Made by a program: the position numbers and the translations under genes. This document shows, piece after piece, positions 33,090 through 37,839 of a DNA stretch of 64,000 nt. The stretch is from Chryseobacterium sediminis (lineage in GTDB: Bacteria; Bacteroidota; Bacteroidia; Flavobacteriales; Weeksellaceae). The notes below the pieces were generated by a model. That model ran no database searches. It saw only the letters and a list, made by a program, of their open reading frames with translations, and was not told the DNA's origin. Position 1 is the stretch's first letter. Each line of letters opens with the position of its first letter. Where the stretch lies: positions 310,001 through 374,000 of the forward strand of contig NZ_VUNZ01000002.1 in NCBI RefSeq assembly GCF_008386505.1. The letters are read 5' to 3'.

Positions 33090-34361
33090 TTAATGAAACC
33101 TGAAGTTAGCTTCCGGCAATGTATTTTTTTTCAGGAAAGCCTCATATTCCGGAGACAGCTTTGCCCGTCCAAAGGTATTTTCACCACTCATGCTTCCAAG
33201 ACGTACCTTATCCTTCCCATATTTCCGGTTCATAGCATCCATAGCTTTCATCACAGGAAGATGCTGGTTTTGTGTATCTTCTTCAAAAAGGCCAATTTGT
33301 CTCTGATCTTCGGGTACAAAATCATTCACCATCACACCTGCTCTTTTATAATGAAACCCCTCTCTGTAAATAGCTTCAAAAAGTTCATTAACCACTCTTC
33401 CTATTAAGATTGATGAATTGGTAGGATTGGATAAAATCCGGGTCATTGCATTTCTGTATTCGGGAAGATCTTTCCTAAAACGGTTAGTCTGTACAAAAAC
33501 AGTAATCATTTTACAACAGGTATTCTGCTTTCTTAATCTTTCTGAGCAGTACATTCCAAAAGTTTCTACCCGTTCTCTTACTTCTTCTTTTTTCGTAAGC
33601 ATCTGCATAAAGCTTCGGGTAACCGCTATGGATTTTTTAGGCGAGGGAGCATCCAGTTCCAGCTGTCGAATGCCCTTCAGCTCATTGATCATCCTTACTC
33701 CATGAATTCCCATAATCTTCCGAACCCATATTTCAGGTTTCTGAAGAAGATCCCAGGCCTTATAGACACCACTGTCATTCATTTTGACAGCCAGCCTTCT
33801 TCCGATTCCCCAAACGTCTCCGATATTAAGCCATTTCAGTGCTTTTTCAATTTTTTCAGGAGTATCCAGAATATAAACTCCGTTAAAATTATCCGGAAAC
33901 TCTTTTACAATTCTGTTCGCAACTTTGCATAAAGTCTTGGTAGCAGCAATTCCGATACTTACAGGAATATTTTCTTTCTCGTCAATCTCTTTTTTGATTT
34001 TAGAACAGTATTCATAAATATCAATATACTTAAATCCTGTTAAATCAAGAAAAAGTTCATCGATACTGTAGACTTCATGATCAAGAACATAGGATTTGGC
34101 GATGTTAATAACCTGTTGGCTCTTATAATTATACAATTCAAATTTTGCAGAAAAACTTTTCACATTATGTTTTTGAAAAAGCTCTTTGTACTTGAATGCC
34201 GGGGCTGCCATAGGAATTCCAAGATCTTTTGCTTCTTTACTTCTGGATACAACACACCCATCGTTGTTGGAAAGAACCACAACGGGTCTGCCTTCAAGAT
34301 CAGGATCTAAAGTCCTTTCACAGGAAACAAAAAAGTTATTACAATCTACGAGTGCATACAT
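33090..34361 (-). CDS. umuC: Y-family DNA polymerase, UmuC type
   Basis: A 423-residue translesion polymerase. The metal-binding acids are Asp6 (MYALVDCNNFF) and Asp101-Glu102 (SIDELFLDLTGF). SNNDGCVVSRS at 31-41 and the SIGIAATKTLCKVANR block are UmuC hallmarks, with DVWGIGRRLAVKM as the helix-hairpin-helix. The C-terminal ends in a beta-clamp-binding-like region (QIGLFEEDTQNQ). UmuC normally works with processed UmuD, but no umuD is adjacent. The gene has its own -7 element at 34387-34394, without the box found in the genes on its other side. Position next to the WYL regulon suggests a damage-response role. Confidence 0.95.
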   Translation of the reverse strand: MYALVDCNNFFVSCERTLDPDLEGRPVVVLSNNDGCVVSRSKEAKDLGIPMAAPAFKYKELFQKHNVKSFSAKFELYNYKSQQVINIAKSYVLDHEVYSIDELFLDLTGFKYIDIYEYCSKIKKEIDEKENIPVSIGIAATKTLCKVANRIVKEFPDNFNGVYILDTPEKIEKALKWLNIGDVWGIGRRLAVKMNDSGVYKAWDLLQKPEIWVRKIMGIHGVRMINELKGIRQLELDAPSPKKSIAVTRSFMQMLTKKEEVRERVETFGMYCSERLRKQNTCCKMITVFVQTNRFRKDLPEYRNAMTRILSNPTNSSILIGRVVNELFEAIYREGFHYKRAGVMVNDFVPEDQRQIGLFEEDTQNQHLPVMKAMDAMNRKYGKDKVRLGSMSGENTFGRAKLSPEYEAFLKKNTLPEANFRFH

Positions 34362-34394: not shown

Positions 34395-34480
34395 GAACTT
34401 TTAAAGAATAAAATCACCTTTTAGACTATAATTAACACCATATTTAACAACCTGAAAAACAAATGGATAAAATTTTTAAA

Positions 34481-34516
34481 TACGACATGTTTTGTCGCAT
34501 TAGCATTATAATTTTG
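34481..34516 (+). promoter_or_regulatory. WYL-regulon promoter A: box and -7 element
   Basis: Box TACGACATGTTTTGTCGCAT at 34481-34500, 8 bases, then TAATTTTG at 34509-34516. The box has inverted arms CGACA and TGTCG around a 5-base centre. No gene follows immediately; it is a second promoter for the endolysin gene, or, because the box is nearly symmetric, may also influence umuC 120 bases away. Confidence 0.8.
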
Positions 34517-34580: not shown

Positions 34581-34616
34581 CACGTCAAGTTCCGTCGCTT
34601 CCGTTCTATACTTTTG
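34581..34616 (+). promoter_or_regulatory. WYL-regulon promoter B: box and -7 element before the M15 peptidase gene
   Basis: Box CACGTCAAGTTCCGTCGCTT at 34581-34600, 8 bases, then TACTTTTG at 34609-34616. The M15 peptidase ATG is at 34638, leaving a leader of about 15 bases. Confidence 0.85.
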
Positions 34617-34637: not shown

Positions 34638-35138
34638 ATGGATAAAGTAACCTTAGAACGAATTCAGAAGCTTCACCCAATGGTAAGAGATGAAGCAAAG
34701 CAAATTGTACAAGAGTGTAATGAAGCACTTACCGGAAGAGCCAAGATACGGATTACTCAGGGGTTAAGATCTTTTGAAGAGCAGGAAAAGCTATATGCGA
34801 TCGGAAGAATTACTTCGGGAAAAAAGGTGACCAATGCAAAGGCGGGACAAAGCATTCACAATTATGGTCTCGCTGTAGACATCTGCCTGATAATTGACAG
34901 AAAAACGGTAAGCTGGGATACAGCAAAAGACTGGGATAATGACAAAGTTGCGGATTGGTACGAGTGTGTAAAAATCTTTGCCCGCCATGGCTGGGACTGG
35001 GGTGGAAACTGGAAAACCTTCAAAGATCTTCCTCACTTTGAAAAAAAGAATATTCCCTCTAAAAAAGGTCCTGTAAAAACCAGCTGGAGAACACTCTTGA
35101 AGATGCCCAGAGATCAGCAGAATTATGTTATTTTTTAG
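34638..35138 (+). CDS. M15-family peptidase, endolysin-like L-Ala-D-Glu endopeptidase
   Basis: A 166-residue zinc peptidase. I set the start at 34638 because an upstream in-frame Met (34614) overlaps the -7 element. Zinc ligands fit His74 and Asp81 in SIHNYGLAVDI and His133 in LPHFE; RHGWDWGGNW at 116-125 is a substrate-site block of phage-type enzymes such as the T5 endolysin. It has no signal peptide and no membrane segment, so the enzyme is made in the cytoplasm and would need help to reach the wall, as phage endolysins need a holin. It is one of four genes with the WYL box; a patatin phospholipase follows. Confidence 0.92.
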   Translation: MDKVTLERIQKLHPMVRDEAKQIVQECNEALTGRAKIRITQGLRSFEEQEKLYAIGRITSGKKVTNAKAGQSIHNYGLAVDICLIIDRKTVSWDTAKDWDNDKVADWYECVKIFARHGWDWGGNWKTFKDLPHFEKKNIPSKKGPVKTSWRTLLKMPRDQQNYVIF

Positions 35139-35231: not shown

Positions 35232-35267
35232 TACGACACGTTCTGTCGCTTCCTCCATCTATCTTTG
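35232..35267 (+). promoter_or_regulatory. WYL-regulon promoter C: box and -7 element before the patatin gene
   Basis: Box TACGACACGTTCTGTCGCTT at 35232-35251, 8 bases, then TATCTTTG at 35260-35267. The patatin start is 125 bases further on, so the transcript has an unusually long leader with a hairpin. Confidence 0.85.
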
Positions 35268-35392: not shown

Positions 35393-36430
35393 ATGAAAAA
35401 GACAACCATTCTTTCTTTGGACGGAGGCGGAATAAGAGGAATCATCACCTGCATTATTCTACGCTACATAGAAGAACAGCTCCAGTATTATGATAAACCC
35501 ACAGCAAAGCTTGGAGATTATTTTGATCTGGTAGCAGGCAGCAGCACCGGAGGTCTGATTGCCTGTATTATTCTATGTCCCGACGAAGCCCGAAAAGCAA
35601 AATATTCTATTCAGAAAGGATTAGAATTATATGCGGAAAAGGGCGGCGACATCTTCCAGGTTTCCTTTTGGGAAAAACTGGTTAATCCATTCGGATTATT
35701 GAATGAAAAAATTCCACAGGAATCACTTCAAAGGAATTTAAATGACTTTTTTGGAAATTTAGAATTAAAAGAATTAATAAAACCATGTTTAATAACAAGT
35801 TATGATATTGAGAACAGAAGAGCAAAACTTTTCAACTCATGGAAAGCCAATCTCAGCACAGATAATTTCTATGTAAAAGATATTTGCAGGGCGACTTCGG
35901 CGGCTCCAACCTATTTTAGTCCGGTACAGATCAAATCGATGTATGGACAGATTTTCAGCCTTATTGATGGAGGAATGTTTGCCAATAATCCTGCTCTTTG
36001 TGCCTATGCAGAAGCAAGAAAGATTCCTTTTGCAGAAGTTTTAAAAAACCATCAGAAAGCCAACCACCCGAGTGTAAATGATATGATTATTGTTTCTATT
36101 GGAACAGGAATTGAAGCCAGACCTTATCCTTTTAAAAAACTTGAAAAAGCAGGAAAAATTGGCTGGGTAAGCCCGATTATTGATATTTTAATGTCTGCCA
36201 ATGCAGAAACAGTAGATTATCAGCTTGAACAGATGTTTCAGACCCTGGGTTTGAGAAATCAAAAAAACTATTACCGTCTCAATCCTTCACTGAAAAACGC
36301 TTCGCCTGCAATGGATAACGTAAAAAGATCCAATATTGAAAATCTGATACAGGCCGGACTGAGCTATATTGATGACAACAGAGAAATGCTGAACCAAATT
36401 GTTCAGAAACTCATCAAAAATAAAATATAA
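35393..36430 (+). CDS. Patatin-like phospholipase
   Basis: A 345-residue patatin-domain lipid hydrolase. The oxyanion-hole motif is GGGIRG at 11-16, the nucleophile elbow is GSSTG with Ser51, and the catalytic Asp192 is in DGGMFANNP. These three make an intact Ser-Asp dyad. No signal peptide or membrane helix is present, so it acts on the cytoplasmic face of the inner membrane. In CBASS systems related CapV phospholipases destroy the membrane, but there is no cyclic-nucleotide synthase gene here. Expression from promoter C places it with the endolysin, the acidic protein and the WYL regulator. Its membrane attack could admit the endolysin to the wall; this is a hypothesis. Confidence 0.93.
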   Translation: MKKTTILSLDGGGIRGIITCIILRYIEEQLQYYDKPTAKLGDYFDLVAGSSTGGLIACIILCPDEARKAKYSIQKGLELYAEKGGDIFQVSFWEKLVNPFGLLNEKIPQESLQRNLNDFFGNLELKELIKPCLITSYDIENRRAKLFNSWKANLSTDNFYVKDICRATSAAPTYFSPVQIKSMYGQIFSLIDGGMFANNPALCAYAEARKIPFAEVLKNHQKANHPSVNDMIIVSIGTGIEARPYPFKKLEKAGKIGWVSPIIDILMSANAETVDYQLEQMFQTLGLRNQKNYYRLNPSLKNASPAMDNVKRSNIENLIQAGLSYIDDNREMLNQIVQKLIKNKI

Positions 36431-36500: not shown

Positions 36501-36536
36501 CACGTCAAGTTCTGTCGTTTTGCCCTATTACCTTTG
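36501..36536 (+). promoter_or_regulatory. WYL-regulon promoter D: box and -7 element before the small acidic gene
   Basis: Box CACGTCAAGTTCTGTCGTTT at 36501-36520, 8 bases, then TACCTTTG at 36529-36536. A 12-codon frame starting at 36541 lies directly after the element; the acidic protein frame follows. Confidence 0.85.
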
Positions 36537-36645: not shown

Positions 36646-36816
36646 ATGAGAATGCCCAACATGGAAACACCAGATCATAAAATAGAAGTACTCTTTGATA
36701 AAAGCCGCTATACCATAGAATGGAGCGATATTGAAAATGCTGAGATGGATTATGAAGACTATCTCAATGATATTGAAAACTTCTTCAGAGAAGATTTTGA
36801 AGAAGATGCTTTTTAG
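36646..36816 (+). CDS. Small acidic protein of the WYL regulon
   Basis: A 56-residue protein if it starts at the ATG at 36646; ATGs at 36652 and 36661, or a TTG at 36586 that would give 76 residues, are alternatives. The C-terminal half is very acidic (DIENAEMDYEDYLNDIENFF, then REDFEEDAF) and has no cysteine. No family is recognised. Strong acidity is a feature of DNA-mimic and inhibitor proteins, but that is a guess. It has its own regulon box (promoter D) and lies between the patatin and the WYL genes, which argues that it is a real and co-regulated gene. Confidence 0.65.
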   Translation: MRMPNMETPDHKIEVLFDKSRYTIEWSDIENAEMDYEDYLNDIENFFREDFEEDAF

Positions 36817-36829
36817 ATAAAAAATAAAA

Positions 36830-36865
36830 CACGACACGTTTTGTCGTATTAACCGCATATATTTG
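36830..36865 (+). promoter_or_regulatory. WYL-regulon promoter E: box and -7 element before the WYL gene
   Basis: Box CACGACACGTTTTGTCGTAT at 36830-36849, 8 bases, then TATATTTG at 36858-36865. The regulator start is at 36919. A box here implies autoregulation. Confidence 0.85.
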
Positions 36866-36918: not shown

Positions 36919-37839
36919 ATGAAGAAAGATTTTTATCTGACAAGATATGCCTTAATTATTAAAAGATTAGAAAGTTCTCCAGCTACTTATTCTCAGCTGG
37001 AGGACTATCTTTTGAACTCTTTTGAATTTCAGGATGCCGAGATCAAGAGCTATTCTATCCGTACCCTACAGAGAGATATCCGGGAGATTTCCGATCTTTT
37101 TAACCTTTCTATTCACAACAAGAAAAAGGGTGACAACCGATATTATATTGAGAGTCGTCCAATTATGGAAGTGGATGAATACAATCAAAAACTGCTTGAA
37201 TCTTTCCAGGTAAGCAATGCTCTGAATCTGCATCCGGATTTTTCAGATTTTATCTTTTTTGAAAGCCGTAAACCAACCGGCGTAGAACATTTTTATGATC
37301 TGTTCTTCGCCATCCGAAATAAAAGGGTTGTAAGTTTTGAACATTACAATTACAAAAATAAACTGATGACCTCCAGAAAAGTACATCCTTTAGCCTTAAA
37401 AGAATCCAAAGACCGGTGGTATCTTATTGCTATTGATACAAAAGATAAAGCCTTAAAATCTTTCGGGCTTGATAGAATCAACTATCTTGATGTAGCAGAC
37501 AATCAGTTTAGAGAGAAGTACAAATATAATTTCAGAGAGCATTTTAAAAATGCATTCGGAGTTATGAATCTTACGGAACAGAAACCACAGAATATTGTAT
37601 TGAAATGCAGCCGCCATCAGGGAGAATATATCAAAAGCTTCCCTCTGCATCAATCCCAGAAAGAGACCAAAGAAACTCCGGAAGAAATGTATTTTGAGTT
37701 CTTCCTCCATCCTACTTATGACTTTATGCAGGAAATTCTTTCTTATGGAAAAGAAGTTACTGTTCTGGAACCTAAAGGTTTAGTTGATGACATCCGCAAT
37801 CACTTGCAGGAATCTTTGAACCGTTATCTAGAAAACTGA
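36919..37839 (+). CDS. WYL-domain transcriptional regulator
   Basis: A 306-residue regulator with an N-terminal winged helix (about 1-75; YSIRTLQRDIREISDLF contains the recognition helix), a WYL domain (about 125-195, with Trp167-Tyr168-Leu169 in KDRWYLIAID) and a C-terminal WCX domain (about 220-300). Known relatives include PafBC (activators of the mycobacterial DNA-damage response), DriD of Caulobacter and the BrxR/CapW repressors of phage-defence loci; several sense single-stranded DNA or nucleotides. The box at its own promoter and at three neighbouring genes identifies it as the likely regulator of this regulon. Activator or repressor action cannot be settled from sequence alone. Confidence 0.92.
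   Translation: MKKDFYLTRYALIIKRLESSPATYSQLEDYLLNSFEFQDAEIKSYSIRTLQRDIREISDLFNLSIHNKKKGDNRYYIESRPIMEVDEYNQKLLESFQVSNALNLHPDFSDFIFFESRKPTGVEHFYDLFFAIRNKRVVSFEHYNYKNKLMTSRKVHPLALKESKDRWYLIAIDTKDKALKSFGLDRINYLDVADNQFREKYKYNFREHFKNAFGVMNLTEQKPQNIVLKCSRHQGEYIKSFPLHQSQKETKETPEEMYFEFFLHPTYDFMQEILSYGKEVTVLEPKGLVDDIRNHLQESLNRYLEN

Follow-up and report, generated by a model that had tools for sequence, protein, structure and literature searches.

A stretch of 64,000 nucleotides from Chryseobacterium sediminis (NCBI RefSeq assembly GCF_008386505.1, contig NZ_VUNZ01000002.1, positions 310,001 to 374,000 of the forward strand; here called the window) carries five copies of a palindromic box with the consensus CGWCA-N5-YGTCG, all on the + strand, in a region that also encodes a WYL-domain protein. 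Which protein reads this box, how would it act on the promoters, and what would those promoters serve? The original prediction had likened the right half of the box to the mycobacterial DNA damage promoter RecA-NDp, which belongs to the WYL proteins PafB and PafC. The explanation that we prefer, at a probability of about 0.75, is that the box is the operator of the adjacent WYL protein and that this protein is an autoregulated activator of the DriD type, driving a program of lysis and toxin release.

Box sites and their spacing to the -7 element

A search of the window with the pattern CGWCANGTTNYGTCG gave box starts at 34483, 34583, 35234, 36503, and 36832. In all five, the -7 element TAnnTTTG follows GTCG after exactly 11 bases (N11).

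34483..34516, + strand: box 1, CGACATGTTTTGTCG at 34483-34497, then N11 and TAATTTTG at 34509-34516
34583..34616, + strand: box 2, box, N11, and TACTTTTG; promoter-type site, M15 peptidase
35234..35267, + strand: box 3, box, N11, and TATCTTTG; promoter-type site, patatin gene
36503..36536, + strand: box 4, box, N11, and TACCTTTG; promoter-type site, small acidic open reading frame (ORF)
36832..36865, + strand: box 5, box, N11, and TATATTTG; promoter-type site, WYL gene

Positions 34492-34516 had been described as a right half-box, 8 bases, and the TA of a -7 element, and this was borne out in all five copies. The segment consists of TTGTCGCAT (34492-34500), N8, and TAATTTTG (34509-34516), which is the right half of box 1 plus its -7 element; the 9+8 count of that description is the N11 used here. 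Both half-sites are present in 5/5 boxes, and three of the five also match the pattern on the opposite strand, with 3 mismatches.

The spacing holds well beyond the window. All eight perfect boxes in the 4.9-Mb genome have TAnnTTTG at N11, compared with a frequency of 7.6e-4 per position at the same loci, and of 22 imperfect boxes read, out of 44, a single one has the element, likewise at N11. The boxes at C5:156841 and C1:387897 have no -7 element at N11. Boxes with up to 2 mismatches occur at 52 places in the genome, fewer than the 145 of a reversed control pattern, so degenerate boxes alone carry little weight and the evidence is restricted to perfect boxes or boxes with a -7 element. Under the strict pattern the genome has nine sites: the five of the window, three before paralogous genes, and one before a 231-amino-acid orphan. 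In 41 loci, 81 distinct perfect boxes were counted, and in 78 of them N11 leads to TAnnTTTG or TAnnTTTA; the 3 others are all the box beside the polymerase gene. For 20 of the loci, the pattern used to pick them out of genomes contained the -7 element itself. The 209 distinct sites collected give the consensus AAYACGWCAAGTTYTGTCGC, which is in part a product of construction since CGWCA..TT.YGTCG was in the search pattern, leaving only the outside positions independent; among these, an AYA flank before CGWC was recovered (A 0.87, T 0.56 or C 0.39, A 0.80). Four box-like CGTCAAGTTGCTTCGC copies, 100 bases apart and without a -7 element, were also seen elsewhere in the genome (G000:C1:22431-22746).

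TAnnTTTG occupies -12 to -5 in Flavobacterium psychrophilum (PMC9723704), which places the box at -38 to -24 and its proximal GTC at -27 to -25. The original prediction had further taken the absence of the usual -33 TTG as fitting an activator-dependent promoter. The absence itself is literal, as TTG 17 to 22 bases before the TA was found in 0/75 box promoters. It occurs, however, before only 17/102 other TAnnTTTG elements upstream of ORFs, and because the TTG is rare there too, we dropped its absence as strong evidence of activator dependence. A spacing fixed at N11 suggests that the bound protein would have to touch RNA polymerase in one register, which points to an activator; the WYL protein as regulator, and activation as its mode, are the best fit.

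The WYL protein and its likeness to DriD

The gene that follows box 5 is the candidate regulator.

36919..37839, + strand: WYL regulator, 306 amino acids, winged helix-turn-helix (wHTH), WYL, and WCX domains (Pfam WYL 3.3e-14, WCX 4e-8)

Pfam did not report its HTH, and the wHTH assignment rests on an AlphaFold2 monomer model (38 sequences; predicted local distance difference test [pLDDT] 82.3, predicted template modeling score 0.60) and on the fold match given below. A site at its own gene is a recurrent property: with at most 2 mismatches, it lies directly 5' of the WYL gene in 17/20 diverse orthologs (60 to 80% identity). Among distant homologs (31 to 39% identity), 10/20 match the 34-base pattern with 0 to 4 mismatches no more than 150 bp from the start; the remaining 10 have at least 6 mismatches even at their best. 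The geometry therefore belongs to a branch of WYL proteins and not to a single gene. No such site stands upstream of the two other WYL genes of the genome, which are on other contigs. Over 38 sequences, the recognition helix has an invariant R52 and a nearly invariant R48 (R-x3-R), and the ligand loop of the WYL domain has an invariant R186, with the position of a second arginine taken by a nearly invariant glycine (G183). In one relative (G012, L154 15532-15657, flipped), a second, truncated WYL start of 42 amino acids lies behind a perfect site.

The sites and the ortholog occur together. With the whole site defined as box, N11, and -7 element at no more than 1 mismatch, 97 of 98 genomes of the genus have it, 4 to 26 times each, and the reversed control gave 3 matches over all 98. 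An ortholog of at least 74% identity is likewise present in 97/98, counting one (G063) that contains stops in an assembly that is 75% complete. The sole genus genome without a site, G060, has a best WYL match at the level of a paralog (E 5e-16). In a sample of 197 genomes of the family, with the ortholog threshold set at 60% identity or more outside the genus, at least 3 sites were found in 20/22 genomes of other genera with the ortholog versus 3/125 without it. The pattern repeats inside a single genus of that sample (g9), in which 9/9 genomes with the ortholog have 3 to 11 sites and 14 without it have 0 to 2. Beyond the family, samples of the order (196 genomes in all) and the phylum (296 genomes) gave the strict pattern at background frequency, 0 to 1 per genome and similar to the control; the exceptions are G354 with 3 sites and G419 and G653 with 2 each, and single box-like sites were seen in G412, G272, G360, and G442.

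The known systems are compared here as described in the following papers: PMC12340889, PMC11804915, PMC5656591, PMC6789036, PMC8223512, PMC2897130, PMC10693628, PMC9122588, PMC4211646, PMC8565304, and PMC9723704. DriD is a WYL homodimer activator of Caulobacter crescentus that mainly contacts the beta subunit and the alpha-subunit C-terminal domain of polymerase. Its consensus is ATACGAC-N7-GTCGTAT, and box 1, which reads ATACGAC-N7-GTCGCAT, agrees with it in 13/14 letters. DriD promoters are those of didA, bapE, and driD/CCNA_03891, for which a G at -14 is reported; the three promoter oligonucleotides can be aligned with exactly N11 from GNCG to -12 and have the G at -14 in 3/3, in an alignment of our own in which the driD oligonucleotide is read on the lower strand and the left half of bapE is poor. 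The model of the WYL protein matched DriD with Z 17.8 over 201 amino acids (root mean square deviation [rmsd] 3.5) and 16.8 over 251, ahead of BrxR (13.5), DriD chains from cryo-electron microscopy (13.3 to 13.4), PafB (13.0), and CapW (12.7). The single-chain profile matches were DriD at 2e-15, PafB at 9e-14, and BrxR and CapW at 2e-7 or weaker.

By analogy with DriD, a dimer of the WYL protein, woken by a ligand that may be single-stranded DNA (ssDNA), would occupy both half-sites (-38 to -24), astride the place of the missing -33 element, and assist initiation by sigma-A RNA polymerase at TAnnTTTG. The fixed N11 would set the GTC of the proximal half-site at -27 to -25, as in DriD and PafBC promoters. 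The site of the WYL gene itself would give positive feedback, and eight further sites would be activated: those of the M15 peptidase, the CapV-like phospholipase, the small ORF, box 1, the orphan, and three genes of a family whose relative in G032 has a sorting domain of the type IX secretion system (T9SS).

Genes behind the sites and their probable output

The remaining genes concerned in the window are the following.

33090..34361, - strand: UmuC-type Y-family polymerase, divergent (Pfam IMS, IMS_C, DUF4113)
34638..35138, + strand: M15 peptidase, 166 amino acids, endolysin-like (Pfam Peptidase_M15_4 2e-19; PHROGs endolysin 1.3e-30)
35393..36430, + strand: patatin-like phospholipase, 345 amino acids, relative of the CapV type of the cyclic oligonucleotide-based antiphage signaling system (CBASS) (Pfam Patatin 1.3e-25)
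36661..36816, + strand: small acidic ORF, 51 amino acids, 18 D/E and 4 K/R (tblastn)

Boxes 1 and 2 both lie upstream of the M15 peptidase, whose start codon is the ATG at 34638; a crude check saw no signal peptide in its orthologs. The phospholipase matched the NCBIfam CBASS lipase (2.1e-47; 161.9 bits, under the cut-off of 200) and the PADLOC phospholipase effector (2.4e-61). In 6/20 ortholog loci, of which 5 belong to other genera, M15 and patatin genes are no more than 5 kb away from the WYL gene, and in 2 further loci of the 20 there is an M15 gene without patatin nearby. Because they are neighbors in ortholog loci, we take the endolysin-like peptidase, the phospholipase, and the WYL protein as the core. 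In one relative (G038, L152 5608-6104) the M15 gene gives two overlapping matches, as if frameshifted. The small acidic ORF was found by tblastn in 13/16 loci, the other 3 of which end short of its position; with a box of its own, it could be an inhibitor or a DNA mimic.

Four sites of the genome lie outside the window. Three precede paralogs of a family whose member in the relative G032 has a T9SS sorting domain, and the fourth precedes the 231-amino-acid orphan (G000:C7:243991-244683; genus copies L214 to L237). The orphan is present in 24/24 genus genomes and 0/15 others searched, and in 23/24 a site with at most 2 mismatches lies 19 to 21 bases before its ATG. No family was found for it in Pfam, PHROGs, NCBIfam, or PADLOC, nor a solved relative at E <0.2, and its model (pLDDT 70) had no significant fold match.

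Two relatives were read site by site, by the first ORF after 19/19 sites in G032 and 20/22 in G242; these ORFs were scanned in part, and several have no family or are possibly spurious. They include the M15 peptidase, patatin, WYL, small ORF, and orphan. Also among them are T9SS-sorted proteins, a Tox-MPTase4 protein, large "SQTLFRF" proteins that have no family, and a group with a common N terminus, one member of which matches a tail spike of PHROGs (1.9e-29). Of 12 genus loci that reach from the small ORF to the WYL gene, 7 have 7 to 13 kb between the two, with a large SQTLFRF protein. By this distance the loci are as follows.

Insert of 7 to 13 kb with SQTLFRF protein: L153, L154, L156, and L158 to L161
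Gap of 0.1 to 2.3 kb between small ORF and WYL gene: own genome, L151, L152, L155, and L167

In this region, individual proteins had matches to Ntox28 (L160), SUKH immunity (L151), and DUF2589 (L153). The DUF2589 gene, scanned in L153 and with look-alikes in L152 and L161, stands behind box sites in the stretch from patatin to the small ORF; two genes follow it, for which the scan in L153 gave no Pfam family.

The targets would thus be mostly lysis and toxin-like genes and not a repair regulon. The sites would most likely serve controlled lysis and, in genomes with toxin-like genes, the release of their products: the phospholipase would open the inner membrane, the M15 peptidase would open the wall, and the burst cell would free toxin-like proteins, which, on a crude check, seem to have no signal peptides.

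The polymerase gene is the doubtful member. It starts 122 bp from box 1, and a perfect box lies 116 to 125 bp from its start codon in 12/12 loci that hold that start, 3 of which (L148, L157, and L158) have no TAnnTTTG at N11; the gene also has a promoter-like TAATTTTG of its own close to the ATG. Box 1 as the promoter of the polymerase is disfavored, because no -7 element stands at N11 in that direction, although the spacing of 116 to 125 bp is kept. The polymerase would hence be no safe member of the regulon, and the conserved distance of the box makes some link possible. A direct repeat TGTTAAATRTGRTGTTAA (34431-34449, - strand) lies between box 1 and the polymerase gene in 8/11 aligned promoters and may be the operator of another regulator. 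In L148, L149, L150, and L152 the polymerase-side box and the M15 promoter are some 1.8 to 2 kb apart, and in L152 and L147 (from the same genome as L148) a convergent ORF of 527 amino acids, resembling a membrane protein, fills that gap. Some relatives have a gene between box 1 and the M15 gene that is presumably a Na+/H+ antiporter.

The same regulator and geometry could serve a different end, namely anti-phage abortive infection, in which ssDNA made by a phage would trigger the phospholipase and the endolysin and kill the infected cell. We consider this end less likely than not, though well ahead of the remaining alternatives, and it is compatible with the preferred explanation as regards the regulator. 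A phospholipase of the type used as a CBASS effector is encoded here, and the WYL proteins CapW and BrxR accompany defense systems. The sites of the relatives, however, also precede tail-spike-like, Tox-MPTase4, and T9SS-sorted proteins, and the Ntox28 and SUKH immunity genes of the region point to competition between bacteria.

Alternative regulators and comparison with known systems

Several observations weigh against a DriD-type activator of lysis and toxin genes. Of 29 one-mismatch boxes, 18 have the -7 element at N11, 2 have it at N5, and 9 have none. The Fisher value of 1.7e-19 for 20/22 versus 3/125 ignores phylogeny, and within that count G143 has the ortholog and 2 sites, G212 has an ortholog of 60% identity and 0 pattern sites, with variant boxes that end in GGCA or GACA, and G106, G173, and G184 have 3 to 4 sites without the ortholog (homologs of 34 to 37% identity). 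No site lies immediately upstream of the WYL gene in L098, L104, and L113. In the ligand loop, FGLDR keeps one of the two arginines found in DriD (WRLDR) and PafB (FRLSR), so the ligand may not be ssDNA. The full-chain rmsd to DriD is 10 to 11 Å; fused PafBC ranks first by profile, at 3.6e-23 for its two copies together, PafB is first in phmmer, and the Foldseek E-value order is PafB (9fnd_X) first and DriD second. Toward the polymerase, box 1 has no TAnnTTTG at N11 and its -7 element points away, and no classic repair gene is a clear target among the targets read. Lastly, boxes 4 and 5 of C. sediminis itself flank no toxin cassette, so the case for toxin release comes from its relatives. L113, a locus of G212, holds the most distant ortholog with M15 and patatin neighbors, whose wing has NDRSNLFKY in place of NKKKGDNRY; together with the variant boxes, a co-evolution of regulator and site is possible.

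Sigma adaptation of the PafBC kind, the system with which the original prediction drew a parallel, would have one HTH read the -26 half-site and the other dock on sigma region 4, replacing the -33 contact. The RecA-NDp consensus had been given correctly: it is tTGTCRgtg, 8 nucleotides, TannnT (PMC5656591), and the 9+8 spacing and GTC core are indeed common to both, as GTC-N12-TA. The proposed comparison of models was divided, with DriD best by Z and PafB best by Foldseek E-value, and PafB is also near DriD by profile. However, PafBC is a heterodimer with a non-palindromic motif, of which PafB reads the "-26" motif, while the window has one WYL gene, neither adjacent to nor fused with a second, and the box is a palindrome. 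The other two WYL genes are on other contigs and without boxes, although a heterodimer of products from distant genes is conceivable; the distal half-site is present in 5/5 window boxes, and the flank before it is conserved, although conservation inside the pattern is partly by construction. The geometry, a WYL regulator, and activation as the best fit thus remain of the parallel; since the box is palindromic and the DriD match is closer, PafBC is not the best model, and we keep it as a rival of small probability.

Equally improbable, in our estimate, is a repressor like CapW that would keep polymerase blocked until its release by a ligand. In favor of this, box and promoter overlap, the promoter of the WYL gene itself carries a box, as in many autorepressed systems, and the -7 elements are near consensus. 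CapW palindromes, however, overlap the -10 element and not -38 to -24, and a repressor needs no fixed distance, whereas N11 is kept in 8/8 boxes of the genome, 78/81 over the 41 loci, and 10/20 distant homologs. Least probable is that another regulator, such as a Bacteroidetes LexA-type repressor, reads the box with the WYL gene merely one target: such non-canonical SOS regulators exist and the Y-family polymerase adjoins box 1, but their motifs are unlike the box, the sites track the WYL ortholog across genomes, and the box resembles the site of the Caulobacter WYL protein.

Among known systems, the LexA-type SOS regulons of Bacteroidetes share the phylum and possibly the signal with the DriD-type regulon proposed here, and differ in motif, protein family, and targets. 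Their operators are GGA-N5-TCC, CTAA-N5-TTAG, and TTAC-AAATT-GTAA (PMC8565304), and the letters of the box fit neither of the first two; in the main text of that paper the word WYL is absent. CBASS with a CapV phospholipase has, as here, a WYL regulator, a palindromic site, and a phospholipase effector. It differs in that CapW is a repressor with its site over the -10, in contrast to a box at -38 to -24, and with the WYL protein as query CapW ranks lower than DriD by both profile and fold. A cyclase gene was not apparent, as judged only from the list of ORFs at 28 to 41 kb, with four proteins scanned by Pfam. SiwR of rapidly growing mycobacteria is a WYL homodimer and an activator with a 19-bp palindrome between -35 and -10; unlike here, it has a conserved GGA at -26, different targets, and one adjacent operon studied. 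PafBC shares GTC-N12-TA and WYL-WCX proteins, and the R-x3-R of the recognition helix is R48/R52 here, R44/R48 in PafB, and R38/R42 in SiwR; beyond the heterodimer and its non-palindromic motif, PafBC differs by sigma adaptation and a DNA repair regulon.

The closest likeness is to DriD: an ACGAC-N7-GTCG palindrome, N11 to -12 in our own alignment, overlap with the -35/-33 place, a wHTH-WYL-WCX protein, and a site at the gene of the regulator. The differences are the phylum, a -10 element that here is TAnnTTTG, a WYL loop with GxxR in place of RxxR, and 4 to 26 sites per genome in the genus, compared with the few Caulobacter promoters at which DriD binding sites are known. The site here faces the WYL gene itself, whereas in Caulobacter it is the divergent operon, and not driD, that DriD activates; lysis and toxin-like genes here stand against didA, recJ, and dnaG there. 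Among the matches listed in a search of titles and openings of abstracts, mostly in non-subscription literature, we found no publication on a WYL regulon in Bacteroidota.

Colicins are under SOS control. A wider proposition, which we put forward tentatively and at somewhat less than even odds, is that GTC-N12-(-12) is common to WYL activators of three phyla and that this Bacteroidota family has an ssDNA-sensing, DriD-type, LexA-independent, colicin-like regulon of suicide and release, comprising an endolysin, a CapV-like phospholipase, and variable toxins. If the targets are true, a damage-type signal would be wired to lysis and toxin release without LexA, and stressed cells may burst on command. 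Compared with Caulobacter, what appears to be new is that a DriD-type activator would act in a second phylum, at more sites and with a different output centered on lysis. A nearly identical operator at the same spacing, present in 97/98 genomes of the genus, with one natural co-loss (G060) and another -10 element, makes the geometry of WYL activators testable by comparison and by simple promoter mutants.
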